DNA from: a virus
IMG/VR virus record: IMGVR_UViG_3300025889_007657
Span: 1 to 23,032 of that record
Strand: one strand, 5' to 3'
Length of the DNA stretch: 23,032 nucleotides
The notes beneath the pieces are model-generated. The model searched no databases and was not told the origin of the DNA. It was given only the letters and a program-made list of their open reading frames with translations. Every line of letters begins with the position of its first letter. Position 1 is the first letter of the stretch. The position numbers were made by a program, and so were the translations under genes. Below, piece by piece: positions 1 to 14,123 of the stretch.

Positions 1-357
1 CCAAAAGTAGCAAACCTACAACTTCTTCACACCTTTGCTAAACATAGAGGTAAGGGAGTTGGTCGTATTCTTTGCGAGGACTCTCTCCGCTTTGCGAGAC
101 AGAACGCTGCTTTGTATTTTAGAGTATCCGCTGAACCTGACGCTGTAAAGTTCTATGAGCGAATTGGGTTCACTATGCTTGGAAAGCAAAAGAGTGGGTG
201 TCAATTATCTATGTTTCGGATTACTGGTGACACCTTCTTTGACGGCGATTATAGTCTAGAAAATAAACCGATCTACGAAGCAGTACACAAAAAAGGCAAG
301 GGAGGATGTGTTGAAGTATTCGCTGACGAACCCCTTGGACTGGAAGGGTTTCTGTAA
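1..357 (+). CDS. GNAT-family N-acetyltransferase, 5' end cut by window
   Basis: The reading frame is open from base 1, so the true start lies upstream; 118 codons remain before the TAA at 355-357. The acetyl-CoA-binding signature of GNAT enzymes is visible as HRGKGVGRIL (residues 15-24 of the visible part), the Q/RxxGxG/A loop. It is followed by VKFYERIGF (44-52), the usual motif B, where a Tyr often acts as general acid. GNATs transfer acetyl from acetyl-CoA to an amine on a protein, antibiotic or small metabolite; the substrate cannot be read here. The roughly 60 residues after motif B have no recognised motif. The TTG at 112 is internal to the fold and not a start. The gene ends 128 bases before the next and has no obvious terminator. 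Confidence 0.8.
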   Translation, partial: PKVANLQLLHTFAKHRGKGVGRILCEDSLRFARQNAALYFRVSAEPDAVKFYERIGFTMLGKQKSGCQLSMFRITGDTFFDGDYSLENKPIYEAVHKKGKGGCVEVFADEPLGLEGFL

Positions 358-386
358 GTTGTTGATCTAGAAGCAAAAAAAAGGTG

Positions 387-415
387 TTGACAAATACACC
401 GAAAATAGGTACAAT
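387..415 (+). promoter_or_regulatory. sigma70-type promoter TTGACA-17-TACAAT
   Basis: A perfect -35 (TTGACA, 387-392) is separated by 17 bases from TACAAT (410-415), one mismatch from consensus. It should drive the 486-3523 operon, with a start near 422. The -35 lies inside an inverted repeat (GGTGT 383-387, ACACC 396-400), which could be a repressor site. The predicted leader contains a short hairpin (TGTAG 422-426, CTACA 437-441) before the ribosome binding site AGAGGA at 472-477. Confidence 0.8.
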
Positions 416-485
416 TGTTTTTGTAGGGTTGATACTCTACATAATTTTAATCTAAATGCTAATTACCGAATAGAGGATATGCATA

Positions 486-1787
486 ATGTACTTACAATCA
501 AAAGTTATAGTCTATGGTTTTCGCAACATAGAAACTCAAGAAGTTTATATTGGGTATAAACCCGCAGGAAAATCTCACTACGTCAGTTCTTCTGGCAACG
601 CCGATTTCTGGCGTGATTATTCTCAAGGGTTGCTTCGCCAATATATTCTTTTCATTGGCGATGGTTACTATGAAAAAGATCGCCAAATCGCCGAAGCATT
701 AGAGTGGTTTGCACTCGATTATGCGTTTAACGTCTTGGGGGAATCCAAGATGTATAACTCGCATAACAATGCGCACAAAAAGCATGAGTCTCTTCTCACT
801 GCTGAGATTAAGTCCGTTGTCGTCGACTGGATCGAATTCCGTTCGGACGGAATTGTGTTGAGAAACACCTACCAAGAAGATCGGGAAAGAGTTCAAGCAA
901 TTGTCGATCGCATAAAGGATAAGTTCTATCCCGTTGAGCAAGTTTCGTTGTCAAAGGTATCTAAGTTCGAAGCCAATCAGGTTCGATGCGAGCAGTACAT
1001 CCGTTCTCATGTAAACGACATTGCTCAGCGCATTAAAGAGAACCCAGACAACTATGAGAAAAACGTTGACCCCATTGTCACAGTGGTGGGTAAGGATACA
1101 ACTATCCTTGATGGCAACAACACTGCTCGCGCGTTAGAAAAAGTTCCTGGGATTAGTGAAGCTCCAGTCATTTTCATTAACGAAACTGAGTTTGGTGAAA
1201 CTGAAGAAGTTCGTGAAAGGTGTTACAACTTGTTCGGTCTTATTATGAACAAGGCACCTGATGTAGTTCGGGTAGAAAATAGTAACTCTGACATCAAGCG
1301 TCAGATACAGTTACTTCTCCAAAACGAGAACTTGGACCTTACAAAACCACTTCACGTTGACCGCGCTAGAAAAGTTGTAGAAGATTTCTTTCTACACAGT
1401 GTCATCCCCACTAAACAAAAACTCAATGGCGTGTGGAAGTCTTTCATGACTGACTTTGCGAAAGGGCAGTCTGAAAAATATCGACAAAACATGAAAGTCT
1501 ATGACGACTCATATCTTTCCAGATACTGCTGGGAAAATTATGAGTCAAAAGACGTGGCTGTTATTCACGCTTCAATGTCTAAGACTGAATATGCGCAGGC
1601 ATTTGCTTACGTTTGTCGTCGTATGAGAAACGTCGACACCAACAAAGGTGCAATTGTGCTTCATTATGCCACTCCCTATGAGTACCAAAAGTACAATGAT
1701 GGAGTATCGTTGGAAGACCTCAAGTCTACCGTTGAACACACTGGATTAAATATCATAGTGGACGTGCTGCCAGCATTTGATGAATAA
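486..1787 (+). CDS. ParB-like domain protein with possible GIY-YIG-like N-terminus
   Basis: This 433-aa protein opens the candidate DNA-modification operon. Residues 195-215 contain DPIVTVV followed by ILDGNNTAR, matching the ParB/Srx-type core in which a Pro-Ile strand leads to a DG-N-R turn. Residues 7-25 (VIVYGF, then EVYIGYK) with E73 and YNSHNN (90-95) resemble the layout of a GIY-YIG nuclease, but the usual arginine helix is not clear, so this part is tentative. The C-terminal half, residues 240-433, is unassigned. ATG at 486 is preceded by AGAGGA with 8-base spacing. The stop overlaps the next gene. ParB-like proteins are known neighbours of phage thymine-hypermodification enzymes. A role as a DNA- or nucleotide-binding partner or nuclease in that pathway is inference; plasmid-style partitioning is unlikely in this context. 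Confidence 0.6.
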   Translation: MYLQSKVIVYGFRNIETQEVYIGYKPAGKSHYVSSSGNADFWRDYSQGLLRQYILFIGDGYYEKDRQIAEALEWFALDYAFNVLGESKMYNSHNNAHKKHESLLTAEIKSVVVDWIEFRSDGIVLRNTYQEDRERVQAIVDRIKDKFYPVEQVSLSKVSKFEANQVRCEQYIRSHVNDIAQRIKENPDNYEKNVDPIVTVVGKDTTILDGNNTARALEKVPGISEAPVIFINETEFGETEEVRERCYNLFGLIMNKAPDVVRVENSNSDIKRQIQLLLQNENLDLTKPLHVDRARKVVEDFFLHSVIPTKQKLNGVWKSFMTDFAKGQSEKYRQNMKVYDDSYLSRYCWENYESKDVAVIHASMSKTEYAQAFAYVCRRMRNVDTNKGAIVLHYATPYEYQKYNDGVSLEDLKSTVEHTGLNIIVDVLPAFDE

Positions 1788-2754
1788 TCGTAGCATATTT
1801 GTAGAGTGGTTCGGTCGCAGTCTTGAAATAGAAGACTGCGACCCTGCATTGTACATGACTAAATACTTCTTTGATCGTTTTGAATACAACAAAGAACAAA
1901 GACTCTGGATAACTTGGATTTATGGAACAACTTATTATTGGCCAACTGCCTATGTGGTTTGGAACGAATTCCCCGACATGGAGTTGGTTGGCGTTGATCG
2001 CCTTCGCGATTGGAATAACACCAATTATCGCCGCTTGCGTTATCAAACCGACACGAAATGGAATAAAGGACATCTTACAGATCAGTTCGTTTCGTACCAG
2101 CGATATGTTGGAGAACGAACACAACACGATGCACTCACACAAGGATTTGTCGGAGACCCCGTAAAGGATTTCTATACTCTTTGGGAGACAGTTAATGCGT
2201 TTCACAAATTTGGTAGATACTCTTCTTGGTTTTATATCCAAACGCTCAAACAGTGCTGTGATATTCCAGTTGATGTTGATAGTCTTTGGTTGCACGACTA
2301 TAGCGGTTCTCGTTCGCATCGTAACGGACTATGTTACGCACTAGGAAAAGAAGATTGGGTAGATCAAAAGTTGGACAAAGATCAAATAGCATTTCTGGAA
2401 AGTGAAGCAAAGGAAATGTTAGAAGAAACCAAACTAAAATATCCTCACGTTGCTGATAAGGCAGACTTCTTTGCCATGGAAACCTGCCTCTGCTCCTTCA
2501 AAAAACTATTCCGTAGAAAACATGGTCGATATCTTGGATACTACCTTGACCGACAATCAGAAGAGATAAAAAAGGTTGAGAGAGACGGTTGGGATGGGAT
2601 TGACTGGACACCGATGTGGGATGCCAGAAACGAAACTATTGACCGAGAGTGGTTAAAGGGTAGAATAGACAAAGAACTGTTTAACGTTTTCCTCGATACA
2701 GGGGACTTTCATCCCAAAGATAGAGCGAATGGATTAGAGGATTTCTTTGCATGA
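1780..2754 (+). CDS. Alpha-glutamyl/putrescinyl-thymine pyrophosphorylase-like protein (amino acid:DNA transferase family)
   Basis: The protein has 324 aa from ATG 1780; the TTG at 1777 just upstream is a less likely start. The start lies inside the end of the previous gene, implying translational coupling. The family-like features are a Trp/Tyr-rich region near residues 38-60 ending in WNEFPD, a GRYSSW segment at 145-150, and the string DYSGSRSHRNGL at 173-184. These resemble the all-helical phage family proposed to displace pyrophosphate from 5-pyrophosphomethyl-uracil in DNA with an amine or amino acid. Such enzymes act after a 5-hydroxymethyluracil DNA kinase, and a kinase of that type sits two genes downstream. 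Assignment is from memory of family motifs plus neighbourhood; the amine donor cannot be predicted. It ends in an ATGA overlap with the next start. Confidence 0.65.
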   Translation: MNNRSIFVEWFGRSLEIEDCDPALYMTKYFFDRFEYNKEQRLWITWIYGTTYYWPTAYVVWNEFPDMELVGVDRLRDWNNTNYRRLRYQTDTKWNKGHLTDQFVSYQRYVGERTQHDALTQGFVGDPVKDFYTLWETVNAFHKFGRYSSWFYIQTLKQCCDIPVDVDSLWLHDYSGSRSHRNGLCYALGKEDWVDQKLDKDQIAFLESEAKEMLEETKLKYPHVADKADFFAMETCLCSFKKLFRRKHGRYLGYYLDRQSEEIKKVERDGWDGIDWTPMWDARNETIDREWLKGRIDKELFNVFLDTGDFHPKDRANGLEDFFA

Positions 2755-2981
2755 CACCTCAACAAATATTTGATTACAAGAATCGTTGGATGCCTGGATT
2801 TGAAGTTACTTTGCACAGCGACCTTGAGCGAGAAGGAAAGGATTGGTGCAAGAGATTAATGGGTAAAGAGTCTTGGCATTTTAAATCTTTCACCAACATA
2901 TACCAACATTCCTTCTACTTTGAAAAAGAGATCATGGCACAGAACTTTATTATGGAATTCGGGAGATTCACCAACCAATGA
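2751..2981 (+). CDS. Small conserved phage protein of unknown function in the modification operon
   Basis: A 76-aa protein without signal peptide or membrane segment, rich in aromatic residues and Trp (W13, W32, W42). It overlaps the genes on both sides by ATGA (2751-2754 and 2978-2981), so it is almost certainly translated as part of the operon. The opening MTPQQIFDYKNRWMPG and a compact alpha/beta pattern recall small hypothetical proteins of other T4-type phages, but no function is known to me. Its position between the putative transferase and the DNA kinase suggests an accessory or adaptor role in the same pathway. That is inference from position only. Confidence 0.75.
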   Translation: MTPQQIFDYKNRWMPGFEVTLHSDLEREGKDWCKRLMGKESWHFKSFTNIYQHSFYFEKEIMAQNFIMEFGRFTNQ

Positions 2982-3523
2982 AAGTGATCTACCTTATTGG
3001 TATTCCTGGAACTGGCAAGTCCACCATCATGAAAGAGTTTATGAAGACTCAATGTGGTGAGTGGAAGCAAGATCGACCTATTGACCTTCTTGACACTCAC
3101 GTGAATGGTACTGTCCGTATCCTTGGCAAGTATGAGGAAGGCGAGACTTTCAGTGGTACTGATCGTCTGAGCATGGCAGTTGCCCCCAAAGCAATCGAGT
3201 GGATCTCCACTCAACCCGACGAACTAATCGTCGGCGAAGGTGATCGTTTGAACAACGCAGGTTTCTTCGAAGCATGCGGCGACAACCTCACCATTATCCA
3301 CCTAACTGTATCGGACGCTGAACGTGAACGCCGATATAAAGAGCGAGGATCCGACCAGTCTGAGAAATTCATCCAGACTTGCCGCACCAAATGCGCCAAC
3401 ATCCTTGAGCGTTTCGGCGACCAGCAGACCCTGTTCGGGGAGGAGAAAGGATGCGTCATTGAGATGCGTCATGAAACTCCCTCTGACACACAGGAGATAG
3501 TCAACTTCATTCTAAGTTGTTGA
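2978..3523 (+). CDS. P-loop kinase, likely 5-hydroxymethyluracil DNA kinase-like
   Basis: This 181-aa nucleoside-kinase-like protein begins directly with a Walker A loop, GIPGTGKST at residues 8-16. GTDRLSM (60-66) and EGDRL (87-91, the probable Walker B region) follow. An Arg-rich lid segment around 115-124 (ERERRYKERG) resembles the LID of AMP/shikimate-type kinases. The combination of GTDRLSMAV and EGDRL matches what I know of phage 5-hmdU DNA kinases, which use ATP to phosphorylate hydroxymethyluracil within DNA before amine substitution. A GGGAGA box at 2961-2966 precedes the ATG, which overlaps the previous stop. It is the last gene of the operon. Specific substrate is inferred from motif resemblance and the neighbouring transferase-like gene; a generic (d)NMP kinase is the alternative. 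Confidence 0.7.
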   Translation: MKVIYLIGIPGTGKSTIMKEFMKTQCGEWKQDRPIDLLDTHVNGTVRILGKYEEGETFSGTDRLSMAVAPKAIEWISTQPDELIVGEGDRLNNAGFFEACGDNLTIIHLTVSDAERERRYKERGSDQSEKFIQTCRTKCANILERFGDQQTLFGEEKGCVIEMRHETPSDTQEIVNFILSC

Positions 3524-3573
3524 TTTTTAAGAACTTTTTATTACTTTACTTTGTACTGGTTTTCAGCGATAAT
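3513..3573 (+). promoter_or_regulatory. Promoter cassette A: TAAGTTGTTGATTTTT element plus TTTACT-17-GATAAT
   Basis: The element starts at the stop-codon region of the kinase gene. A conserved upstream block (TAAGTTGTTGATTTTTA, 3513-3529) is followed by TTTACT (3545-3550), a 17-base spacer and GATAAT (3568-3573). The same block and spacing recur before 3856 and 6270. The string AGCGATAATATCT is shared with the copy before 3856. A weak stem AAGTT/AACTT (3514-3518, 3531-3535) followed by T-rich sequence might also end upstream transcription. Confidence 0.6.
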
Positions 3574-3602
3574 ATCTCTATACTGAAATAAAGGAGATAG
3601 TT

Positions 3603-3770
3603 ATGTCAAAGTGGTATGATCGTGGTCGGACAGGCGAGTACCTGTTGGACCAAGTAGAGTCGCTCCTCGACGGGTACATCACCCTCGACCAGTTCGTTGC
3701 ACGCTGTAAGCAGGTGGGTCTCGACGAAACTGAGATCGACGAAATCCTTGAAGAAGATGTGTTGCTGTAA
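3603..3770 (+). CDS. Small acidic protein of unknown function
   Basis: A 55-aa protein, short enough to be easily missed. It starts at ATG 3603 after AAGGAG (3591-3596, 6-base spacing) and ends at TAA 3768-3770. The sequence opens MSKWYDRGRTGEYLLDQVES and is strongly acidic toward the C-terminus (DETEIDEILEEDVLL). It has no Cys pair or membrane segment, and its GC-rich third positions match the downstream CobT-like gene, supporting that it is real. It has its own promoter cassette. The function is unknown. A small acidic protein expressed early could be a regulator or inhibitor of a host protein, but nothing in the sequence shows that. Confidence 0.75.
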   Translation: MSKWYDRGRTGEYLLDQVESLLDGYITLDQFVARCKQVGLDETEIDEILEEDVLL

Positions 3771-3828
3771 GTTGTTGTTTTTACACGACTTTTTCAAACT
3801 TGTATTTGTACACGGTTTGAGCGATAAT
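3768..3828 (+). promoter_or_regulatory. Promoter cassette B: TTGTAT-17-GATAAT
   Basis: A second copy of the cassette begins exactly at the stop codon of the 55-aa gene (TAAGTTGTTG, 3768-3777). TTGTAT (3800-3805) and GATAAT (3823-3828) are 17 bases apart. The stretch TTTTTCAAACTTGTATTTG is shared with the copy at 6172-6232. It should drive the CobT-like gene at 3856. Confidence 0.7.
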
Positions 3829-3855
3829 ATCTGTATTGGTTGAGGAGACACGAGC

Positions 3856-6174
3856 ATGAATGAAGCAAACAAATCTACCCTAGCAAAACTGCTTGCCACC
3901 GAGAACATCTCAGTGGTTCAGGACAAGGTTTCGACTGCTTCTTTCGATGTCAAGAATCGTGTACTCACTCTCCCCATGTGGGCAGACGTTTCCAAGCACA
4001 CCGAGGATCACCTGATCGGACACGAAGTCGGTCACGCGCTCTTCACTCCCCTTGAAGGTTGGCATGACGCTGTGTGCGATCGTGGTCCTTCTTTCAAGTC
4101 ATATCTCAACGTGGTCGAGGATGCCCGAATCGAGAAGTTGATTCAGCGCAAGTATCCTGGACTGCGTGGTTCTTTCATCAAGTCATACCGCAAACTGTTC
4201 GCTGACGGTTTCTTCGGTGCTGACCTTGATACCATTAACAAGATGGGTCTGATCGATCGTATCAACACCTACTTCAAGTGCGGTATGTCTGCTGGCGTTC
4301 AGTTCGCAGCAGACGAGAAACACTGGTTGCCGCGCATCGAGAAACTCGAGACGTGGGAAGAAGTTGTTGCCCTCACTGAAGAATTGTTCCAGTTCGCCAA
4401 AGAGCAGCAGGAGCAGAAAGAACAGGAAATGGCGAATGACCCCGACACCGACGAAGATGAAGAAGGTGACGAGGATGGTGCTGGCATGTCTGGTGTTGAT
4501 GACTTCGACGACGAAGAGATGGATGAGTTTGACGAACTCTTCAGCGACAAACCCCAGCAGGAAGAGCAGGGCGAAGAGTCTGATGAAGAAGACGACGCTG
4601 ATGCGCCCGATTCTGCCACCACTGGCACTGGCGAAGAAACTGCTTCCGAGCAGGATGAAAAGACAGGCACTGAAACTGGTGGCGAGCAGGGTGGGCGATC
4701 TGACACTTCAACCGAACAGGCAATCGAGTCTCAGACAGACAAGAACCTGCGCGACAACATCGACCGTGAAGTGTTTCAGAACTTCGACGGTACTGTAAGA
4801 AATTGGATACTTCCCAAAGCATCAGGCGATATCGTCGTAGACTACAAGACTGTGCTCGCCGACATCCGATGTGAGTTGATCGCTGGGGAAGATGATACTT
4901 CTTCATGGCGATTTTCCACATTAGAGTCTCGTGCAAAAGAGTACAGCGTATATGATAAACACTTCGGCAATATATTGTTCAGTGGTTGGTATAGCAAGAA
5001 CAAGAAAGCAATCAACCTGATGGTCAAAGAATTCGAGATGCGAAAGTCTGCTGCTGAGTTCCAGCGAGCAACCATCTCCAAGTCTGGTGTCATCGACACC
5101 ATCAAGATGAACAACTACAAGACTTCAGAAGATATCTTCAAGAAAGTCACCGTTGTACCTGAAGGGAAGAATCACGGTTTCCTGATGTTACTCGACATGT
5201 CTGGTTCCATGAACGATGTGTTCTATGACGTGGTCAAGCAGACTCTACTGATGACCATGTTCTGTCGTCAGATCAACGTGCCTTTCCGCGTGTATGGTTT
5301 CTCCGATTCTTTGTCCTATAATGGTCGGCGAAATGGCGAAGAAACTGAGGATAACTCTCTTCAATTCAACCAAGATTGCCGACTGATCGAGATCTTCAAC
5401 GAGAAAATGTCCAAGTCTGACCTTGCTGAAGTCGCAGGTGCACTGCTCGTTGCTGGTGCTTCTCACCACAGCAGGACAGCGGTTAAAGAGTTTGGTTCTC
5501 ATCCCGATTTGTGCTTCTATGGAAACCGTCTTCGTTGTAACCCTGCTGAAGTATTCAGACTTGGCGGTACTCCTCTTGATACTGCAATCAATCACCTGAT
5601 TCCGATTGCTCTCGAGTTTCGAACCAAGTATCGTCTGGACAACCTGAACACGATAACCCTGACCGATGGATACTCTCATCCTCTCACAACCAACTCTGGT
5701 TGGGATTACGTTGACCATATGGCACGTCAGAGAAATACGATGACTTCTATTCGTTGCGCTTGGAACAACAAGACTTATCGTTGGGGTTGGGTTGGTAATC
5801 GCCCTATGGTCGGCACCGAGTTGTACCTCAAGATGTACAAAGATATAACTGGTTCCACTGTACTTGGATACTTCGTCCAGACTGGTGGCAAGGCAAACTT
5901 CCAGAAAGTCATTGGTCGTATGACTGGTGTATGGTTTGATGACTCTGAAGCATGGAAGAAGGCAAACAAAGGTGAGCACTACTCCATCGTGGTTCCTGGA
6001 TATGACGAGATGTTCATCGTCAACCAGAAAGCACTGGTCCCCGTGACCAACGCTATGGATGAAGTTTCTGCTGGCGAGTCAAAGGCAAAGATCCGAACTG
6101 CCTTCAAGAAATCAGCGAACAATGCTCTCCGCGCCCGAAAGATGCTTGTCGACATCGTCAAGAGGGTTGCCTAA
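3856..6174 (+). CDS. CobT-like protein with N-terminal HExxH motif and C-terminal VWA domain
   Basis: A 772-aa protein in three parts. The N-terminal part carries HEVGH (residues 56-60) with VVEDARIEK downstream, a gluzincin-like zinc-site arrangement. Residues about 193-295 are a very acidic, low-complexity linker. The C-terminal VWA domain has an intact MIDAS: DMSGS (447-451), T572 and D604 in LTDG. It resembles CobT, the VWA partner of the AAA+ CobS in aerobic cobaltochelatase, and phage VWA proteins paired with MoxR-type ATPases. That ATPase is the next gene. No CobN chelatase is present in the window, so cobalamin synthesis is not supported. A chaperone- or protease-like remodelling machine is more plausible (inference). 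GAGGAG (3842-3847) precedes the ATG by 8 bases. The first two thirds are visibly more GC-rich than the window average. Confidence 0.85.
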   Translation: MNEANKSTLAKLLATENISVVQDKVSTASFDVKNRVLTLPMWADVSKHTEDHLIGHEVGHALFTPLEGWHDAVCDRGPSFKSYLNVVEDARIEKLIQRKYPGLRGSFIKSYRKLFADGFFGADLDTINKMGLIDRINTYFKCGMSAGVQFAADEKHWLPRIEKLETWEEVVALTEELFQFAKEQQEQKEQEMANDPDTDEDEEGDEDGAGMSGVDDFDDEEMDEFDELFSDKPQQEEQGEESDEEDDADAPDSATTGTGEETASEQDEKTGTETGGEQGGRSDTSTEQAIESQTDKNLRDNIDREVFQNFDGTVRNWILPKASGDIVVDYKTVLADIRCELIAGEDDTSSWRFSTLESRAKEYSVYDKHFGNILFSGWYSKNKKAINLMVKEFEMRKSAAEFQRATISKSGVIDTIKMNNYKTSEDIFKKVTVVPEGKNHGFLMLLDMSGSMNDVFYDVVKQTLLMTMFCRQINVPFRVYGFSDSLSYNGRRNGEETEDNSLQFNQDCRLIEIFNEKMSKSDLAEVAGALLVAGASHHSRTAVKEFGSHPDLCFYGNRLRCNPAEVFRLGGTPLDTAINHLIPIALEFRTKYRLDNLNTITLTDGYSHPLTTNSGWDYVDHMARQRNTMTSIRCAWNNKTYRWGWVGNRPMVGTELYLKMYKDITGSTVLGYFVQTGGKANFQKVIGRMTGVWFDDSEAWKKANKGEHYSIVVPGYDEMFIVNQKALVPVTNAMDEVSAGESKAKIRTAFKKSANNALRARKMLVDIVKRVA

Positions 6175-6232
6175 GTTATTGATTTTACAAGAGTTTTTCA
6201 AACTTGTATTTGGGTTCGTTTTGCCGTATAAT
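6172..6232 (+). promoter_or_regulatory. Promoter cassette C: TTGTAT-17-TATAAT
   Basis: The third copy of the cassette starts at the stop codon of the CobT-like gene (TAAGTTATTG, 6172-6181). TTGTAT (6204-6209) and TATAAT (6227-6232) are 17 bases apart. The -10 is a perfect match. It gives the AAA+ gene its own promoter independent of its VWA partner. Confidence 0.75.
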
Positions 6233-6269
6233 GGTTATATAGATTGGTGATTAAGTAAAGGAAATGATT

Positions 6270-7439
6270 ATGAGTAAAGCACAACAGTTGGTCGACATCT
6301 TCGCTGGTATGTATGGTGATGAACCCCGAACAATATCCAAGGATGAGGTGAAGCGTGTCGCCAAAGAGAATGGTATCCCCTCTCTGTATCGGATCTTGAA
6401 TGCTAACAACCTTGCTGAAAATGGCGAATACCACTTTCCGCCTATTGGCAAGTCAGTTGTGCCTCGTGCGACGACACGCAAGGTGTCTGCTCCCAAACCA
6501 GTTGCTGTGGTTGCTCCTGCACCTACTCAACAGACCGCGAGTTTGTCTGTGAACAGTGACGGGTTTACCGATAACTTGGTCCCTGTCAAAGACGACTTGT
6601 ATGTCCCCTTCGGCAACTTCAAGATGGTTCGGGATATTATCAAGTCCAATATGTTCTATCCTATCTTCATTACTGGTCTGTCTGGTAATGGCAAGACCTA
6701 TATGGTTGAGCAGGCATGTGCTCACACCAAACGTGAAGTCATCCGTGTCAACTTCACCGTCGAGACAGACGAGGATGACCTGATCGGTGGTTTCCGACTC
6801 GTTGATGGCGAGACCAAGTTCTTTAAAGGTCCAGTAATCAAGGCAATGGAGCAAGGTGCTGTCCTGCTCTGTGACGAGATTGACCTCGCTAATCCTGCGA
6901 AAGTCATGTGTCTTCAGTCTATCCTTGAGGGCAAGGGATACTTCATCAAGAAAACTGGTGAGTACATTCAACCTGCCTCTGGATTCACCGTGGTTGCTAC
7001 TGCCAACACCAAGGGTAAAGGATCAGACGATGGTCGGTTCATCGGTACTAACATCCTCAACGAAGCATTCCTTGAGCGATACCCGATTACCTGTGAACAG
7101 GAGTATCCTTCTGCTGCTGTCGAACGCAAGATTCTCGACAAACTGGCAGAGTCGATTGGTGTCGAAGATACCGAGTATCTCCAGAAGTTGGTTGACTGGG
7201 CAGATATTATCCGCAAGACTTTCATGGACGGTGGTGTTGATGAGATCATCTCGACTCGCCGACTGGTCCACATCGTCAAAGCATACGCCATCTTCGGTGA
7301 CCGTATGACTGCGATCGAGATGTGCACCAACCGTTTCGACGAAGAGACCAAGTTGTCCTTCCGTGACTTGTACACGAAGGTGGACGAGACCGTGAGTCTA
7401 GAATCTGAAGAAAATGTTAATGAAACACTTGACATCTGA
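6270..7439 (+). CDS. MoxR/CobS-like AAA+ ATPase
   Basis: A 389-aa ATPase. ATG 6270 is chosen over ATG 6264 because AAAGGA (6257-6262) is 7 bases from the former and only 1 from the latter. An N-terminal region of about 100 residues ends in an Ala/Pro/Val-rich linker. The AAA+ core follows: Walker A GLSGNGKT (136-143), Walker B ending in CDEID (DE 202-203), sensor-1 segment VVATANTKGKG, FLERYPIT with a probable arginine finger, and STRRLVHIVKA as sensor 2. This is the MoxR/CobS type, which works with a VWA protein, here the preceding gene. T4-type marine phages often carry it under the name porphyrin biosynthesis protein CobS. That pathway role is unsupported here; ATP-driven remodelling of an unknown target is the safer reading. 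Confidence 0.88.
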   Translation: MSKAQQLVDIFAGMYGDEPRTISKDEVKRVAKENGIPSLYRILNANNLAENGEYHFPPIGKSVVPRATTRKVSAPKPVAVVAPAPTQQTASLSVNSDGFTDNLVPVKDDLYVPFGNFKMVRDIIKSNMFYPIFITGLSGNGKTYMVEQACAHTKREVIRVNFTVETDEDDLIGGFRLVDGETKFFKGPVIKAMEQGAVLLCDEIDLANPAKVMCLQSILEGKGYFIKKTGEYIQPASGFTVVATANTKGKGSDDGRFIGTNILNEAFLERYPITCEQEYPSAAVERKILDKLAESIGVEDTEYLQKLVDWADIIRKTFMDGGVDEIISTRRLVHIVKAYAIFGDRMTAIEMCTNRFDEETKLSFRDLYTKVDETVSLESEENVNETLDI

Positions 7440-7456
7440 TTCTACTTGTGTATAAT
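7429..7456 (+). promoter_or_regulatory. sigma70-type promoter TTGACA-16-TATAAT
   Basis: Both hexamers are perfect (TTGACA 7429-7434, TATAAT 7451-7456) with a 16-base spacer. The -35 overlaps the last codons of the AAA+ gene. It should drive the sliding clamp gene. Confidence 0.85.
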
Positions 7457-7485
7457 AGTATTTGTTGCTTGTAAAGGAGATCGTG

Positions 7486-8160
7486 ATGCAACTAAATGAA
7501 ACAACTATGGAAGTTCTGAAGAACTTCGCCAGTATCCAAAAGAACCTTCTAATCCCAGAAGGTGATACTGTTAAGACGATTGCAGATGCCAAGAACGTAA
7601 TGGCAGTTGCAAAACTGAATCAGTCTTTCGATAAGTCTTTTGGAATTTATGATGTAGACCAGTTCTTGTCTGCTTTGGGTTTGGTAGATGACCCGACTCT
7701 AGACCTTGGTGATAGGTTTGTAACTGTCAAGGATTCTAGCGGTCGATCAAGTGTGAAGTATTTCTACTCCGATGCAGATATCCTAACTACTGTTTCCAAA
7801 GATATTCCTATGCCCGAGTCTGAAGTTCGCTTCAAACTGGACGAGGCAACTTTGGGACGGGTTCGACGTGCCGCTGGTACGTTGGGTCACGAGAAGATGA
7901 CAATTACTGCTACCGAAGGTGGGGTTCTGTTGTCTGTTGTTGATAACACAGACGATACTTCCAACGCTTTCAGTATCACGGTTCCAGGTTCATACGATTC
8001 AGAGAACTTCTCTTTCGTTATGAACATTGCTAACCTTCAATTGTTATCTGGTAATTATGATGTTGAGGTTTCCTCTCGTCTGATTTCCAAGTTTACTAAC
8101 GAAAGCATTGATGTATGTTACTACATCGCTCTTGAAAAATCCTCAACTTACGGAGAATAA
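7486..8160 (+). CDS. 45: Sliding clamp (DNA polymerase processivity factor), T4 gp45-like
   Basis: A 224-aa protein, close to the 228 aa of T4 gp45. ATG 7486 follows AAAGGAG (7473-7479) by 6 bases; the in-frame TTG at 7462 would translate through that ribosome site and is rejected. The N-terminus (MQLNETTMEVLKNFASI) aligns with gp45. The segment FGIYDVDQFLSALGLVDD corresponds to the gp45 IYDLNGFL region, and the C-terminal MNIANLQLLSGNY and YYIALEKSST match its end. gp45 forms a trimeric ring loaded by gp44/gp62, holds gp43 on DNA and, in T4, also activates late transcription from TATAAATA promoters, two of which occur in this window. In T4 the clamp gene sits next to 44; here about 8 kb of accessory genes lie between. 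Confidence 0.93.
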   Translation: MQLNETTMEVLKNFASIQKNLLIPEGDTVKTIADAKNVMAVAKLNQSFDKSFGIYDVDQFLSALGLVDDPTLDLGDRFVTVKDSSGRSSVKYFYSDADILTTVSKDIPMPESEVRFKLDEATLGRVRRAAGTLGHEKMTITATEGGVLLSVVDNTDDTSNAFSITVPGSYDSENFSFVMNIANLQLLSGNYDVEVSSRLISKFTNESIDVCYYIALEKSSTYGE

Positions 8161-8164
8161 TCTC

Positions 8165-8377
8165 ATGGCAGAAAAAGAAAAGACATTCAAGGTCGACGAT
8201 GTTCGCCCAATCTACGACGCTTCTTTCCGAGCATCGCGTACTATGATCTCAGTGATCGATGCTATGTGTGGTCGTGGCGCAGTAAAGGGTGAGGAGTTGT
8301 CCGCTGTTGGTCAATTGCGCGACCAGTGTGTACAAATCGCCCAGATGTGTGAACAGTTCCACTCTGAAAACGAGTAA
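8165..8377 (+). CDS. Small protein of unknown function downstream of the clamp gene
   Basis: A 70-aa protein from ATG 8165, preceded by GGAG (8152-8155). An upstream in-frame start at 8108 would lie inside the clamp gene and is rejected. It starts MAEKEKTFKVDDVRPIYDAS and contains two Cys in an otherwise helical, charged sequence. It has no membrane segment. It sits 4 bases after the clamp stop and its stop overlaps the next start (TAATG, 8375-8379), so the three genes are probably co-transcribed. T4 places the RNA-polymerase-binding RpbA beside gene 45, but no sequence resemblance is visible. Confidence 0.75.
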   Translation: MAEKEKTFKVDDVRPIYDASFRASRTMISVIDAMCGRGAVKGEELSAVGQLRDQCVQIAQMCEQFHSENE

Positions 8378-8868
8378 TGATCTTCGATAAGTCTGAATAC
8401 GATTTCGTGGATGCTCTTGAAAGTAATTGGAAAGGCATTCGCGAAGAGTATTATCAATCTACTCTAGAACATATGCAGTGGTTTGAACCAGACTTAAACG
8501 AAGATAAGAAGTGGCAAGTATTACCAATCTATGATTGGCCAATGGGACTGGCGGTTGAAGGGTACGCGGAAAACCTTCCCTTCACTAAAGGTATCATCGA
8601 CAAGCATATCCCTTATCACCGTGCAGCGAGTTTCTCTCGGTTACAAGCAGGAGCGTTTGTTCCTGAACATAACGGTATAAGGGGAGATTGGCATAGGTTG
8701 CATTTAGGCATAGACATACCAGAAGGTGATTGTGGTATTACTATTGGCGGTGCACCCTATAAATGGAAGAATGGAGAGTGTATGGTGTTCGATGATTATG
8801 AACGCCACTCTGCTTGGAACAAAACCGATCAAGATCGGATTGTATTGATAATAGACTTTATACCATGA
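8377..8868 (+). CDS. Aspartyl/asparaginyl beta-hydroxylase-like dioxygenase
   Basis: A 163-aa protein consisting almost only of the double-stranded beta-helix core of the Asp/Asn hydroxylase family (Asp_Arg_Hydrox type). Visible landmarks are H98 in PEHNG, R107 in WHRLHLGIDIP, C119, W130 and G133 in WKNGECMVFDDYERHSAWN with H144, and R154 in RIVLIIDF. This family coordinates iron with two histidines and lacks the usual acidic third ligand, which fits H98/H144. R154 would bind 2-oxoglutarate. Members hydroxylate Asp, Asn or Pro side chains on proteins. The target is unknown; a clamp-proximal or virion protein is a guess from position. The start overlaps the previous stop. Confidence 0.8.
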   Translation: MIFDKSEYDFVDALESNWKGIREEYYQSTLEHMQWFEPDLNEDKKWQVLPIYDWPMGLAVEGYAENLPFTKGIIDKHIPYHRAASFSRLQAGAFVPEHNGIRGDWHRLHLGIDIPEGDCGITIGGAPYKWKNGECMVFDDYERHSAWNKTDQDRIVLIIDFIP

Positions 8869-8876
8869 GAATTCTT

Positions 8877-8953
8877 CGGAGATTGGCGCAGTCTGGTAGC
8901 GCATTCGCTTTGGGAGCGAAGGGTCGTAGGTTCGAATCCTACATCTCCGACCA
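8877..8953 (+). tRNA. tRNA-Pro (anticodon UGG), CCA encoded
   Basis: The 77-base cloverleaf is complete: acceptor CGGAGAT (8877-8883) pairs with ATCTCCG (8943-8949), followed by discriminator A and encoded CCA (8951-8953). The anticodon stem TTCGC/GCGAA (8904-8908, 8916-8920) encloses TTTGGGA, giving anticodon TGG at 8911-8913. The T-arm contains GGTTCGAATCC. The pattern closely resembles gammaproteobacterial tRNA-Pro. It starts 8 bases after the hydroxylase stop codon and would be cut from that transcript. A short hairpin (GTGTTC 8966-8971, GAACAC 8984-8989) follows it without a T-run and could mark 3' processing. Confidence 0.96.
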
Positions 8954-9019
8954 GAATAAGGTATCGTGTTCGCCTTCAACAAAGAACACATTAACTGAAA
9001 CAGTCAAATATGGAGTTAT

Positions 9020-9268
9020 ATGATGACTAAGACTGAACGTGTGCTTGAGGCACTTCAAAACGGTGAGCAACTGACTGCTAAGCAAATCGCTGCTCGTTTC
9101 TCTTCTGGCAATCCTCGTGAGGTTGTTCGAAGTCTTCGTTCAAAGGGTTATGCTATCTATGCAAACCAGCGAACGAACAGCAAGGGTGAGTCAAAGACTT
9201 TCTACCGTCTTGGTACTCCTACTCGTGCCATGGTTGCTGCTGCATATGCCGCTGTAGGCGCAGCATAA
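9020..9268 (+). CDS. Small winged-helix-like DNA-binding protein
   Basis: An 82-aa protein of the helix-turn-helix type. TERVLEALQNGEQLTAKQIAARF forms helix 1, a turn and helix 2; GNPREVVRSLRSKGYAI looks like the recognition helix entering a beta-wing ending TFYRLG. A short Ala-rich tail follows. Similar small proteins are common in T4-type phages, with no defined regulon known to me. Two starts are possible: ATG 9020 and ATG 9023. GGAG (9012-9015) is 7 bases from the second and 4 from the first, which slightly favours 9023. A terminator follows directly. It could regulate phage or host transcription, but no operator can be identified here. Confidence 0.75.
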   Translation: MMTKTERVLEALQNGEQLTAKQIAARFSSGNPREVVRSLRSKGYAIYANQRTNSKGESKTFYRLGTPTRAMVAAAYAAVGAA

Positions 9269-9313
9269 ACCTTTGAGGTTTGCCCCACCTCTACCAAACG
9301 GGGCATTTATTTC
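9267..9313 (+). terminator. Intrinsic terminator after the winged-helix gene
   Basis: Two adjacent hairpins: AAACCT/AGGTTT (9267-9272, 9276-9281; loop of 3), then TGCCCC/GGGGCA (9281-9286, 9300-9305), followed by TTTATTT. They share T9281, so only one forms at a time. The second has the standard GC stem plus T-rich tail. Confidence 0.75.
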
Positions 9314-9319
9314 CTCCCT

Positions 9320-9340
9320 TGCTCTTTTCTAGAGCATTTT
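9320..9340 (+). terminator. Second short hairpin with T-run
   Basis: TGCTCT (9320-9325) pairs with AGAGCA (9331-9336) across a 5-base loop and is followed by TTTT (9337-9340). It sits just upstream of the late promoter and would insulate it from early transcription as a back-up terminator. Confidence 0.6.
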
Positions 9341-9343
9341 AAG

Positions 9344-9351
9344 TATAAATA
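9344..9351 (+). promoter_or_regulatory. T4-type late promoter TATAAATA
   Basis: An exact TATAAATA, the -10 element recognised by T4-type late sigma (gp55) with the gp45 clamp as activator. It is placed between a terminator and the secreted/membrane cassette starting at 9435. No -35 is needed for this class. The rest of 9352-9434 is AT-rich leader with no gene seen. Confidence 0.75.
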
Positions 9352-9434
9352 ACTTCGAATTGATCTGATTCCAACTCACAGTATTTCTCGTCATTACTTT
9401 AGAACAATAATAATTTCTATATTAAGGTAATGAT

Positions 9435-10034
9435 ATGCACCAATTAGATAAATCATTAATCCGCATATGCATATTTGCGGTAATAGCGACATTTGTTGTC
9501 AGTATGATGCCTGCACTCGTCTACGGTCAAGAAGAATCGTTAAACGACGTTATACGAACAGAGTCTATTACAGATAGCACTGTCACAACTAACGGTAATA
9601 CTACTACTCGATTGAAGTCGCCTCCTGCTTCGGCAATCACCCCAACAATAAATACTTCTAACTCTGACCTTTGTACCTTTGGAGTTGCTGGCGCGATACA
9701 AACTCAGATATTGGGTGTGTCCACAGGAACTCAGTTCACAGATGAAAACTGTGAACGACTAAAGAATGCCAAAACTCTGTACGATATGGGCATGAAGGTT
9801 GCCGCTGTTTCTGTTATGTGTCAAGACGAAAGAGTTTTCAATGCTATGATGCATGCGGGAACCCCTTGCCCATATGATGGGTTAATCGGCGCAGAAGCAA
9901 AGGCAGCGTGGTTGGCAGAAGGTAAAAGTGTCGAGAGTCCAGCGGAAGAGGCAGGGATAGATGAAAAGACAAAAGATACAGCAGTTGCTAGTGGCGGTAT
10001 CGCTGGTTTGTTGGCACTCTTACTCTTACTCTGA
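9435..10034 (+). CDS. Exported protein of unknown function with hydrophobic C-terminal tail
   Basis: A 199-aa protein, first gene of the late cassette. The N-terminus (residues 10-29) is a hydrophobic signal or anchor, with a possible cleavage after VYG (31). A Thr/Ser-rich region follows. Residues from about 78 (SDLCTFGVAGAIQTQILG) to 145 hold four Cys, consistent with disulfides in the periplasm. The last 14 residues, SGGIAGLLALLLLL (186-199), form a short hydrophobic tail. TAAGGT before ATG 9435 is the ribosome site. The last 74 bases overlap the next gene in another frame. The sequence recalls proteins from other marine T4-type phages, but I know no function. Envelope or virion location is inferred from the signal and the late promoter. 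Confidence 0.75.
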   Translation: MHQLDKSLIRICIFAVIATFVVSMMPALVYGQEESLNDVIRTESITDSTVTTNGNTTTRLKSPPASAITPTINTSNSDLCTFGVAGAIQTQILGVSTGTQFTDENCERLKNAKTLYDMGMKVAAVSVMCQDERVFNAMMHAGTPCPYDGLIGAEAKAAWLAEGKSVESPAEEAGIDEKTKDTAVASGGIAGLLALLLLL

Positions 10035-10848
10035 GCAAGTATTCGGTACGACTAATAATGCCTCACGAGCAGGGTATAATTGGGTGATGACCAATATACT
10101 GCCTGCACAAGCAGGGTTGACTGTCAACGGAGTGGTGTATCAATATACCACCGTAAAAGAAGAACAAGACCAAATGGTGGTTCACGTTCAAAACGAGAAC
10201 CCGATAGATGGCGGATATACATTCAGGAGTTCTGACGATTGGTCAGGTATTCCAGGGAACACAATCAATAAGATTGTGCCCGTTGCTAGAATCCCGATAC
10301 AATATTGGGGGGAAGGTTCGATAGAGGTAGAGGGAAATGGAGAGGTGACCGACCCATTTGTGTTCTACTCTTATCAATACGATACTTGTTTTGACCCACA
10401 ATCAAACCCAGATTGTCCTGGATATAAAGTTGAGGTTCCAGACATACCCTCAGTACAAATTGTGGACCCCCTTGACGATCAATTTGTTCAAGATGAAATT
10501 GACAGGGATATGATGATGCGTGACGAAGATGAAGAAGAACGTACTCGAAAAGAAGTTGCGCAAGATGATGAAGAAAGAGAAGAGGAAATAGATTTAGAGA
10601 ATGTTTTGGGTATCGTGAATCGCTCATTACAGACAGCAGAAGATACCGCAAAGCACAATCAACAGATGGCACTGAATCAGTTTTCGCAAGGGTACTTTGT
10701 ACAATTACCCGATACAATATATGAAGAAACAACTACATTGAAAGACGCGACGTTACCGAGAAATAAACGTGGTCGTCGTTTGGAATTTACACAACAATTA
10801 TTGCATCAACAATTAGTGAAAAGTCAATATAAACTAGGAGAACGATAA
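9961..10848 (+). CDS. Exported structural-like protein with charged coiled-coil region
   Basis: A 295-aa protein. ATG 9961 gives an N-terminal signal (MKRQK, then LLVAVSLVC 9-17, possible cleavage after SYS 24), which supports this start despite a 74-base overlap with the previous gene. A GAGG box at 9948-9951 precedes it. The body begins QVFGTTNNASRAGYNWVMTN, with a beta-rich part to about residue 150 and a Cys pair in DTCFDPQSNPDCPGYK. A highly charged helical stretch (about 175-225, DEDEEERTRKEV and so on) and a Gln-rich C-terminus follow. The layout suits an envelope-spanning or virion fibre-associated protein, but no function is known to me. The stop overlaps the next ATG (TAATG, 10846-10850). 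Confidence 0.75.
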   Translation: MKRQKIQQLLVAVSLVCWHSYSYSEQVFGTTNNASRAGYNWVMTNILPAQAGLTVNGVVYQYTTVKEEQDQMVVHVQNENPIDGGYTFRSSDDWSGIPGNTINKIVPVARIPIQYWGEGSIEVEGNGEVTDPFVFYSYQYDTCFDPQSNPDCPGYKVEVPDIPSVQIVDPLDDQFVQDEIDRDMMMRDEDEEERTRKEVAQDDEEREEEIDLENVLGIVNRSLQTAEDTAKHNQQMALNQFSQGYFVQLPDTIYEETTTLKDATLPRNKRGRRLEFTQQLLHQQLVKSQYKLGER

Positions 10849-11345
10849 TGTTCAAGAAAACGATAGTCGCTACTATGCTCTCGGCATCTTTTTGTGCTCA
10901 GGCGATAGAGACTCCAATCATAGGTAACGTGGAGTCTAAATGCGTTGTCACAACAGATAAGCAGGGTGTCTATGGAAACCCAACCTCTGACGTGTTGAGT
11001 ACTGACGCAGCAGATGGTGGAGTTGAACCAGTAGTTCGGTACGACGTAATCATAGCAGATGCTTACAAAGCAGTTATAACCCATCCAACTTCTTTCTCGC
11101 AGAGTCCAACGTTGAATGACACCGTAGCATGGACAGGTTCTACTTCTGTAGAAGCAGTTTCTGATGCTCAGATGTCTGCCTATGATAATGATAAAATTGT
11201 GTACGAGTCGACCACTGAAGTAGATCTTTCTTACACTGGTAGCACTTGGTTCAAAGTAAGTTCAGAAGCAAGTTACGGGTTTAACAAAGCATTCCCTGGT
11301 GGAACCTACACTGCAATTGTACAAGCATCTTGTATAGCATTGTAA
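10848..11345 (+). CDS. Exported protein of unknown function
   Basis: A 165-aa protein with a classic Sec signal peptide: MFKK, a hydrophobic core, and cleavage after AQA (17-19). AGGAG at 10836-10840 precedes the ATG. The mature part is beta-rich, with many Thr/Ser/Val, and two Cys: one near the start (ESKC) and one in the closing QASCIAL, likely a disulfide. The general look resembles pilin-like or fimbrial-adhesin-like beta-sandwich proteins, and the segment NPTSDVLSTDAADGG recurs, as I recall, in homologues from marine phages. No catalytic motif is visible. Being the third of five successive exported proteins, it may form part of an envelope or particle-surface assembly (inference). Confidence 0.75.
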   Translation: MFKKTIVATMLSASFCAQAIETPIIGNVESKCVVTTDKQGVYGNPTSDVLSTDAADGGVEPVVRYDVIIADAYKAVITHPTSFSQSPTLNDTVAWTGSTSVEAVSDAQMSAYDNDKIVYESTTEVDLSYTGSTWFKVSSEASYGFNKAFPGGTYTAIVQASCIAL

Positions 11346-11348
11346 ACC

Positions 11349-11723
11349 ATGATATATGTTATGGCATTGCTGGCATCCTTCTTTAGTGGGCAAGTATTTG
11401 CTCACGAATGGGTGCCAACTTATCCTAAGTTGGAACTATCTTCTGTTCCATCTATTTTACGTGCTGAAATGCACCTACTTAATCGAAGAGAGGACGTAGA
11501 GTATTATTCTTTTGAAGTGTTTGATGAAGATTTTGAACCAGTACCATTCGCCGCTACCCAGAGAACTGTGAGACTAAAGTATCTGGATAGAAAAAATGTA
11601 AATATTTACATAAGAGTTAGAGATGCGGACAAGGTAGTTTACATATGTTCTAGATCTGAAATTGTTGCTGACAAAGAAACTAGAACTGTAGTTTCTTCTA
11701 GAATATGCTCTAAAGTGAAATGA
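11349..11723 (+). CDS. Exported protein of unknown function
   Basis: A 124-aa protein with a signal peptide (hydrophobic residues 2-14, cleavage after VFA 16-18) and a mature start HEWVPTYPKL. The mature domain is small, beta-rich and ends with a Cys pair (YICSRS, then RICSKVK). The beta-strand pattern (VEYYSFEVFDEDFEPVPF, NVNIYIRVRDADKVVYIC) resembles an immunoglobulin-like or chaperone-like sandwich, without a family match I can name. It starts 3 bases after the previous stop and lacks a good ribosome site, suggesting translational coupling. Its stop overlaps the next start by ATGA. Its base composition is more AT-rich than the replication genes. Confidence 0.72.
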   Translation: MIYVMALLASFFSGQVFAHEWVPTYPKLELSSVPSILRAEMHLLNRREDVEYYSFEVFDEDFEPVPFAATQRTVRLKYLDRKNVNIYIRVRDADKVVYICSRSEIVADKETRTVVSSRICSKVK

Positions 11724-12160
11724 GAAGAGTATTAGTTGTATTCGTATATTTCATATTTGGGTTTTGGGTTGGTTCTGCATATGCGCAATCCAACGGAATA
11801 AACCTGAGTATACCTCAGAGTGGGCAGAACTTTCAAAACGATCGCGTGAGAGCGGGTGATGTTGAGTGTTCTGCTGCTATAGGTTCTTCGACTAACGTTG
11901 AGTTTGGTGTAGTTGGAATCATGAATCAAAATGATCCTCTCTACAACTTAGCAAGTAGTGATCCAAACTTTTATTATAATAACAATGACTTTGTAAGAGA
12001 TGTTGGTGTCTATGGAAAGATAACTATCCCGATTGGTGCGCCAAAGAAGAGATTGAATTGTGATGCTTTGTATCAACTAGAGTTAGAAAAGAAACGACTT
12101 GAAGTTATAAAGTTAAGGCAAGAAATACAAAACTTACAAAACCTACAATTCGAGAAATAG
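11720..12160 (+). CDS. Exported protein with C-terminal coiled coil
   Basis: A 146-aa protein with a signal peptide (MRR, hydrophobic 4-18, cleavage after AYA 20-22). The mature part begins QSNGINLSIPQSGQNFQND and contains VECSAAIGSSTNVEFGVVGI, then VGVYGKITIPIGAPKKRLNC: two Cys and a beta pattern that looks like paired strands of a barrel or pore-lining element. Residues 115-146 form a Leu/Lys/Glu heptad coiled coil ending LQNLQFEK. It overlaps the previous gene by ATGA and ends 8 bases before the next. Function unknown. A small oligomeric outer-membrane-associated protein is one reading, not proven. Confidence 0.72.
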   Translation: MRRVLVVFVYFIFGFWVGSAYAQSNGINLSIPQSGQNFQNDRVRAGDVECSAAIGSSTNVEFGVVGIMNQNDPLYNLASSDPNFYYNNNDFVRDVGVYGKITIPIGAPKKRLNCDALYQLELEKKRLEVIKLRQEIQNLQNLQFEK

Positions 12161-12168
12161 GGGGAATT

Positions 12169-12756: not shown

Positions 12757-12757
12757 T

Positions 12758-12916
12758 ATGGACTGGTTAAAAGGAAGACTCGGGGAAAGAACTTCATTAG
12801 ATGGCGCAGTATTGATTGCCATTGGAGGTTCTGTTTTACTTCTCGGTCCATTGGCAAAATGGGCAGCACTAGGTGCAATCGGTTACGGCATCTGGACGTT
12901 ACTCAAGAAGGGATAA
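12758..12916 (+). CDS. Small membrane protein, 52 aa
   Basis: ATG 12758, one base after the previous stop, preceded by AGGAG; TAA at 12914-12916. The sequence opens MDWLKGRLGERTSLDGAVL and is hydrophobic from residue 16 to 46 (LIAIGGSVLLLGPLAKWAAL and on), long enough for one long or two short membrane helices, with a basic end LKKG. Similar tiny proteins accompany DUF1353 genes in other T4-type phages, as far as I recall. It might be a holin-like or membrane-accessory peptide. Size and position fit, but nothing proves it. Confidence 0.75.
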   Translation: MDWLKGRLGERTSLDGAVLIAIGGSVLLLGPLAKWAALGAIGYGIWTLLKKG

Positions 12917-12919
12917 AAA

Positions 12920-13396: not shown

Positions 13397-13405
13397 GAGT
13401 CCGGA

Positions 13406-13729: not shown

Positions 13730-13758
13730 TTGCTTTTTCATTATAGATAAAGTATAAT
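13730..13758 (+). promoter_or_regulatory. sigma70-type promoter TTGCTT-17-TATAAT
   Basis: TTGCTT (13730-13735), 17-base spacer, TATAAT (13753-13758), starting just after the stop codon at 13727-13729. The opening TAGTTG plus T-run partly resembles the cassettes at 3513, 3768 and 6172. It should drive 13865-16051. Confidence 0.7.
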
Positions 13759-13792
13759 TACTACAGTCTCGAGATGACTCTAAACTCGCTCT

Positions 13793-13833: not shown

Positions 13834-13864
13834 AACACACAACACAACACACAAGGAGACTATT

Positions 13865-14071: not shown

Positions 14072-14080
14072 GTTTTACTA

Positions 14081-14104: not shown

Positions 14105-14123
14105 GATTTAATGGAGTTTTGTT

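Follow-up and report, generated by a model that had tools for sequence, protein, structure and literature searches.

The stretch of DNA analysed here (the window, an entire 23-kb IMG/VR fragment of a T4-like virus of bacteria) is predicted from its genes to hold the right-hand part of a TET/JBP-initiated phage DNA-hypermodification cluster. Such a cluster is widespread in environmental T4-like phages; its thymine-modifying route is predicted to begin with hydroxylation within DNA by TET/JBP and not with the supply of a hydroxymethylated nucleotide. Similar predicted gene sets are already known from actinophages; what is new here is the presence, in a modification cluster, of a swappable GIY-YIG/ParB gene that has a sigma70-like promoter of its own.

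Gene content and extent of the cluster

At the left end of the window, four genes on the plus strand overlap by 4 to 8 bases. They code for a 433-aa GIY-YIG/ParB protein (positions 486 to 1787), a 324-aa amino acid:DNA transferase of the ADDT or aGPT-Pplase type (1780 to 2754, with an in-frame TTG at 1777 as an alternative start), a 76-aa protein (2751 to 2981), and a 181-aa P-loop kinase (2978 to 3523). An earlier, sequence-only reading of this DNA had taken them as a compact candidate operon of four genes. The four overlapping genes stood, but the proposed extent did not, since TET, glutamine-amidotransferase (GATase), and GNAT genes proved as constant as those for the transferase and the kinase. 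These additional genes were found on a near-identical contig, L007, which prolongs the window leftwards (positions 7940 to 17184 match 1 to 9245 of the window with 99.8% identity) and on which the cluster continues past the window edge with a TET/JBP dioxygenase followed by GATase, amidoligase-like, and GNAT genes. Only the 3' end of the last gene of this block, the GNAT acetyltransferase, falls within the window (1 to 357, plus strand; complete at 7754 to 8296 of L007), and it matched the Pfam family Acetyltransf_10 with an E value of 2.2e-9 for the window part and 2.1e-13 at full length. On contigs that were long enough, linkage to the cluster was found for the kinase in 77/77 cases, TET in 39/39, GATase in 56/56, and GNAT in 56/56, counts that take in some duplicate loci. 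The closest GATase relatives were all located in this cluster or on contigs ending within it, and distant homologues appeared in phage groups outside the leading ADDT matches.

The 76-aa protein, encoded on the plus strand, had been considered a possible new component. It gave no match in a Pfam profile search and was confined to three near-identical loci; it is therefore not a general pathway component and is best described, from its distribution, as a lineage-specific orphan.

The claim that the genes have a promoter of their own held up. The sigma70-type promoter TTGACA-N17-TACAAT (387 to 415, plus strand) is placed to serve the GIY-YIG/ParB gene and those that follow. It agrees with the consensus at 11 of 12 positions, and the pattern TTGACAN16-18TANAAT occurs three times in the window versus 0.06 expected by chance. 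The position is also kept: a sigma70-like box (at least 10 of 12 positions) was present no more than 160 bp upstream of the first gene in 32/48 relatives, compared to control rates of ca. 6% in shuffled sequence and 10 to 18% for the ADDT, kinase, and GATase genes.

Transferase and kinase

The resemblance of the 324-aa protein to aGPT-pyrophosphorylases, first suggested by its motifs, was confirmed by its match to the Pfam family ADDT (PF18724), with an E value of 4.9e-21 and 76 bits (curated cut-off, 26.2). The motif cited for it, DYSGSRSHRNG, falls in the core of the ADDT alignment, which is almost invariant. PDB profiles 25qc (E value of 9e-4) and 8z2m (0.015) were also matched, with the motif ETxLCxxK common to them. 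When the structure model (pTM 0.85) was searched with Foldseek, the top three matches were the 5-phosphomethyl-dU glycinyltransferase structures 8z2n/8z2m (probability 1.00, TM 0.49 to 0.62), with E values of only 0.1 to 0.2. The protein is thus predicted to swap the phosphate on 5-phosphomethyl-U in DNA for an amino acid. By analogy the donor may be glycine.

The 181-aa protein (plus strand) belongs to the Pfam family Ploopntkinase3 (PF18751; E value of 2.4e-18) and is predicted to be a 5-hydroxymethyl-U DNA kinase. In an alignment of 31 sequences, Walker A, GTD, EGxR, R119, and Q127 were conserved, and the previously cited GTD and EGDR were invariant or nearly so. The assignment as a kinase was upheld, but not as the HMUDK type (PF18723) of ViI-like phages, which was present in 0/8 large relatives and was found in Cygsa01 and D506.

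From the homologies, the conservation of catalytic motifs, and the strict co-occurrence of the genes, we consider a three-step pathway likely as a whole. TET/JBP would act on thymine in replicated DNA and hydroxylate its methyl group, giving 5-hydroxymethyl-U, Ploopntkinase3 would phosphorylate this base to 5-phosphomethyl-U, and the ADDT protein would displace the phosphate by the amine of an amino acid, yielding alpha-aminoacyl-thymine. The side chain may then be trimmed or capped by the co-conserved GNAT and GATase and, in some relatives, the amidoligase. The cluster thus offers candidates for the enzymatic production of DNA with 5hmU, 5-phosphomethyl-U, or aminoacyl-thymine.

Origin of the hydroxymethyl group

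The Tet_JBP gene is located on L007, ca. 1.7 kb to the left of the window (E value of 2.5e-15; 56.5 bits versus a cut-off of 34.9), and we infer its presence in the phage of the window from the 99.8% identity of that contig. The Fe/2OG residues H304, D306, H358, and R375 (HxD...H...R) were invariant across 33 sequences, the profile matched human TET2 (E value of 1.6e-7), and a TET/JBP gene was found in 12/12 viral relatives searched. Another 2OG dioxygenase, at 8377 to 8868, was discarded as the thymine hydroxylase, as it is of the aspartyl/asparaginyl beta-hydroxylase type and the true TET/JBP lies beside the cluster.

The earlier expectation that another part of the genome would code for a dUMP hydroxymethylase corresponds to the route of phages ViI, M6, and phiW-14, in which the polymerase would incorporate 5hmdUTP and a kinase and a transferase would decorate it. 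The final enzyme family (ADDT) is identical in that route and the kinase is analogous, and the T4-like phage Cr30 does have a PF00303 gene (thymidylate synthase/dUMP hydroxymethylase) besides ADDT, Ploopntkinase3, and TET. However, no hydroxymethylase was located inside or near the cluster, and PF00303 appeared in 0/21 relatives, among them a 154-kb and a 162-kb contig (the genome of the window being itself a fragment), nor was it detected in six further relatives, one of them a 161-kb contig. Besides, ADDT phages that follow the hydroxymethylase-type route (Cygsa01 and D506) carry PF00303 and HMUDK, without TET or Ploopntkinase3. Given also the constant TET/JBP and the missing HMUDK described above, a dUMP hydroxymethylase is very probably not used here, and we regard this route as highly improbable.

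A second alternative, to which we give little credit although slightly more than to the previous one, is that TET oxidizes 5-methylcytosine and that the kinase and transferase work on 5hmC. Gene sets of this sort exist, as Melnitz-3 (L004) combines a C5-cytosine methylase (C5-MTase) with TET, GIY-YIG/ParB, and Ploopntkinase3, and another contig (L160) combines C5-MTase, TET, and TAGT. Against it, a C5-MTase was found in 0/21 relatives of the window, the same set used for the PF00303 search, and in none of C48C1, DLP6, and S-CBWM1, and the substrate of the structurally characterized ADDT relative is 5-phosphomethyl-dU. The preference for thymine over 5-methylcytosine rests on this absence in viral relatives, some of which are fragments, and a methylase provided by the host is possible. 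Altogether, the constancy of TET and the absence of PF00303 and C5-MTase in relatives point to thymine as the base that is probably hydroxylated within DNA, then phosphorylated, and then aminoacylated. Since hydroxylation would take place within DNA, a sequence-selective modification is predicted.

The GIY-YIG/ParB protein

The product of the first gene (plus strand) consists of a GIY-YIG nuclease-type domain (residues ca. 1 to 100), a ParB-like domain (ca. 150 to 235), and a helical C-terminal part, in agreement with its initial description as ParB/GIY-YIG-like. Residues Y10, G23, Y32, E73, and N91 of the GIY-YIG domain were present in 15/15 homologues and Y21 in 14/15; the classical Arg position was not identified, and a Pfam search gave no GIY-YIG match for the protein of the window itself. 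The ParB protein Noc was matched both by profile (E value of 0.009) and by the structure model (pLDDT 86), for which Noc 7nfu was the best PDB match (E value of 2.9e-4). The model also had viral ParB and GIY-YIG matches, and the relatives had phrog ParB matches. A NAD_kinase match (E value of 0.004, below the cut-off) was dropped given the evidence for ParB and GIY-YIG, and the interferon-gamma matches of the profile (chance helical matches) and the Foldseek matches ranked below ParB (noise) were disregarded. A tblastn search among named phages gave no match, and the relatives were drawn from IMG/VR.

A recognizable copy of the gene was present in 31/56 long clusters and missing from the other 25/56. 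When the 433-aa protein alone was used as the query, 67 further loci were recovered, 57 of which were in this modification cluster, while others adjoin C5-MTase, TET, and TAGT (L160) or Mom (L152). Three pairs of clusters were nearly identical except that the gene had been replaced by an allele with only 17 to 24% identity, and in L096-L100 it was found upstream of TET. It behaves as an optional, promoter-bearing block that is mainly confined to modification clusters.

Our tentative interpretation, held with somewhat less than even confidence, is that the protein would be a nuclease attacking DNA that lacks the modification. As a last element of the proposed mechanism, it would be a DNA nuclease with modular target recognition that cuts unmodified DNA of the host, a rival phage, or a satellite. 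This functional reading draws on the two domains, the nuclease residues kept among homologues, the location next to modification genes, and the exchange of alleles. With a similar degree of reserve, it could represent a new modification-linked phage nuclease whose alleles are exchanged and whose family accompanies thymine ADDT, cytosine TET/C5-MTase, and Mom-type systems. If true, this would be a phage-borne restriction module destroying DNA without the phage's own decoration.

Two other explanations appear less probable, each to about the same extent. The gene could be a free-standing, homing-endonuclease-like mobile element merely lodged in the cluster, as matches to phage homing-endonuclease families (phrog_314) were obtained for the GIY-YIG domain and the gene is optional, sits between other genes, brings a promoter of its own, and is swapped as one block. 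Nevertheless, its loci are concentrated in this cluster or lie beside other modification genes, the ParB-like domain is kept, the gene can move within the cluster, and replacement by a different allele, beyond mere presence or absence, is unlike simple homing. The protein could equally be a non-cutting factor that chooses the sites for TET, kinase, and ADDT, like a specificity subunit. ParB is likewise the first gene in the actinophage TET and kinase sets, and the allele swaps resemble exchanged target-recognition modules. However, many clusters lack the gene, and all the GIY-YIG catalytic positions are kept in proteins mostly only 16 to 39% identical to that of the window, which suggests selection for cleavage. 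A swappable nuclease-like partner would be common to several base-modification systems, and the role of the ParB gene in such clusters is therefore directly testable.

Comparison with known systems

The nearest precedent is the actinophage set of Rhodococcus phage Tonitrus, with ParB, TET/JBP, aGPT-Pplase2/ADDT, and Ploopntkinase3 (PMC11955845). The same four co-occur in the cluster described here (TET on L007), as in TET-initiated sets of the actinophage type. ParB-like, TET/JBP, and Ploopntkinase3 genes are also found in Mycobacterium phage Hangman and Microbacterium phage MementoMori, and the ADDT-type gene in the sets of Tonitrus and Hangman (E value of 5e-24 between the Hangman protein and that of the window). 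In contrast, the actinophage ParB is strongly different, with no GIY-YIG domain in the sequences compared, no GATase, amidoligase, or GNAT is annotated alongside, and the sets adjoin the terminase, whereas the cluster of the window adjoins T4-like replication genes.

Pseudomonas phage M6, Salmonella phage ViI, and Delftia phage phiW-14 likewise combine phosphorylated 5hmU in DNA with transfer of the aGPT-Pplase/ADDT type (PMC6449724, PMC5977210, PMC9476957). However, in them a hydroxymethylase makes 5hmdU as a nucleotide, instead of TET/JBP, and the kinase is of another family. The closest fold match to the 324-aa protein, the Pseudomonas phage 5-phosphomethyl-dU glycinyltransferase gp46/PUGT (8z2m, 8z2n), has ETxLCxxK in common with it but only ca. 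14% identity.

Among phage nucleases, T4 endonuclease II (denA) is a GIY-YIG member and is not known to have a ParB-like domain. This endonuclease of a 5hmC phage cuts host DNA and spares the phage's own modified DNA (PMC6071114). Although the origin-directed nuclease Odn of ICP1 has the reversed domain order, a RepA-type instead of a ParB-like domain, and no reported linkage to modification genes, it is likewise a chimera of a GIY-YIG-superfamily nuclease and a DNA-binding domain, encoded by a gene that varies between isolates (PMC8263062).

Gene content of the predicted modification cluster

The window is the entire 23,032-bp IMG/VR fragment and comes from a T4-like phage, with genes for a sliding clamp, a gp44-type clamp loader, and a family-B DNA polymerase located downstream of the cluster. 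The four ORFs described in the sequence-only reading (486-1787, 1780-2754, 2751-2981, and 2978-3523) were all recovered, with neighbors sharing 4 to 8 bases. The Pfam search assigned the 181-aa product (2978-3523) to PF18751 (Ploopntkinase3, E 2.4e-18); it gave no match for the 76-aa product and no credible match for the 433-aa product.

The transferase role first suggested for the 324-aa protein (1780-2754) was borne out by the profiles, which matched PF18724 (amino acid:DNA transferase, ADDT; E 4.9e-21), with aGPT-Pplase3 as a weaker second hit, and, among solved structures, 25qc (amino acid:DNA transferase, E 9e-4) and 8z2m (glycinyltransferase, E 0.015), the alignment having an ETxLCxxK motif in common. 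The three best PDB matches of its AlphaFold model (pLDDT 86, pTM 0.85) were the 5-phosphomethyl-dU glycinyltransferase gp46/PUGT of a Pseudomonas phage (probability 1.00, TM 0.49 to 0.62, Foldseek E 0.1 to 0.2), followed by endonuclease III at low probability. Membership in the ADDT family is firm.

The IMG/VR contig L007 matches window positions 1-9245 at 99.8% and reaches 7.9 kb further left. There we found a Tet_JBP dioxygenase (TET; 4821-6224, E 2.5e-15), whose profile matches human TET2 at 1.6e-7 and in whose family the Fe(II)/2OG residues are conserved in 33/33 aligned sequences. Alongside ADDT, L007 6224-8296 holds a GATase_6 protein (6224-6895), an amidoligase-like protein (6892-7767, slightly below the curated cut-off), and a complete GNAT (to 8296) whose 3' end opens the window; these three may modify the amino acid once it is attached, or may form a cassette of their own. 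TET lies upstream in some relatives, as it does in this phage, and between ADDT and the kinase in others. On contigs long enough to judge, we counted the kinase in 77/77, TET in 39/39, GATase and GNAT in 56/56 each, the amidoligase-like gene in 33/56, and GIY-YIG/ParB in 31/56; some of the loci counted overlap, and all belong to a single broad phage lineage.

Elsewhere in the window, the motif GCGATAATATCTNTAT occurs at 3566-3581 and 3821-3836 (2 copies against 0.05 expected, ≤2 mismatches), ahead of a small ORF at 3603 and a 772-aa gene at 3856, respectively; both copies are candidate phage promoters. A 2OG dioxygenase of the aspartyl/asparaginyl beta-hydroxylase type (8377-8868; PF05118, E 1.6e-32) lies near the sliding-clamp gene, and the 77 bp of a tRNA-Pro(tgg) (8877-8953) are 100% identical in the locus L021, the flanks of which do not align. 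Beta-ketoacyl synthase (PF00109), GT2 glycosyltransferase, and NAD epimerase genes (14124-18281) sit amid T4-like replication genes.

Two predicted routes to the transferase step

Homology and linkage support a pathway in which TET would hydroxylate T in DNA, the kinase would phosphorylate the hydroxylated T, and ADDT would then substitute an amino acid. PF00303, the thymidylate synthase/hydroxymethylase family in which the anticipated hydroxymethylase would fall, was not found in 21 viral relatives, including contigs of 154 and 162 kb, nor in six more, one of 161 kb. The C5-cytosine methylase PF00145 was also missing from the same 21. In contrast, the ADDT phages Cygsa01 and D506 have PF00303 and HMUDK_hel, without Tet_JBP or Ploopntkinase3. 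From these opposite gene contents, two predicted routes to the same transferase are visible, nucleotide hydroxymethylation with HMUDK or TET with Ploopntkinase3. There were two exceptions. Cr30 has TET, Ploopntkinase3, and ADDT together with a PF00303 gene, and Melnitz-3 carries a C5-cytosine methylase with TET and Ploopntkinase3, so that TET may act on cytosine there.

In the phages C48C1, DLP6, and S-CBWM1, which have no PF00145, a related TET adjoins sugar-transfer or sugar-nucleotide genes instead. In C48C1 (8998-12445), the TET shares 74% identity with the L007 enzyme, and an unassigned protein and a UDP-galactopyranose mutase take the place of kinase and ADDT after it; the product is perhaps a sugar-decorated hmU.

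An exchangeable GIY-YIG/ParB partner

The view of the first gene (486-1787) as ParB/GIY-YIG-like held for both parts of the protein. The GIY tyrosine, YIG glycine, Y32, catalytic glutamate E73, and asparagine N91 were invariant in 15/15 homologues, and the second half matched ParB (Noc) by profile (E 0.009) and fold (E 2.9e-4). Viral fold matches were ParB/Srx and GIY-YIG proteins.

Relatives are only 16 to 39% identical to the window protein, except for one copy at 82%. In three cluster pairs, this protein was replaced while the remainder was almost identical: 17% between window/L007 and L010 (ADDT 96%, kinase 99%, TET 95%, GATase 99%), 24% between L084 and L085 (ADDT, kinase, TET, and GATase 98, 100, 100, and 100%), and 23% between L087 and L077 (ADDT 100%, kinase 99%). 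The unit exchanged is the gene plus most or all of its upstream region, which has a sigma70-like promoter in 32/48 copies. A homing-type cassette is one possible reading of this gene.

Querying with this family alone, leaving the modification genes aside, retrieved 67 further loci, 57 of them inside a TET/ADDT/kinase cluster or on contigs ending within one. L160 (536-6749) is a cytosine-type cluster in which this protein again appears as a partner, near a C5-cytosine methylase, TET, and a TET-associated glycosyltransferase. Relatives in L151 to L158 have a different context with Mom-like genes (seen in L151, L152, and L154); in L152 (1099-5734), a tandem pair of Mom-like proteins (PF25680, E about 1e-44) is encoded 1.5 kb upstream of the relative, and L151 and L154 show the same ORF at their edges. 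L149 and L150 retain the GIY-YIG part alone. A modification-targeting factor is another possible reading; we favor a nuclease that would spare modified DNA and whose target recognition would be exchangeable.

Comparison with known systems

Iyer and colleagues (2009, 2013) reportedly predicted sets of TET, ParB, ADDT, and kinase. Such sets have also been predicted in the actinophages Hangman and Tonitrus (PMC11955845). The literature searched yielded no description of an environmental T4-like version with constant GATase and GNAT, or of a swappable GIY-YIG/ParB partner common to other modification chemistries; we therefore consider the cluster a variation on a known kind of system. For the predicted nuclease, there are two closest working precedents. 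One is T4 endonuclease II, whose cytosine specificity leaves the DNA of the phage itself uncut (PMC6071114). The other is ICP1 Odn, in which a GIY-YIG-type domain is joined to a DNA-binding domain and whose gene varies between isolates (PMC8263062).
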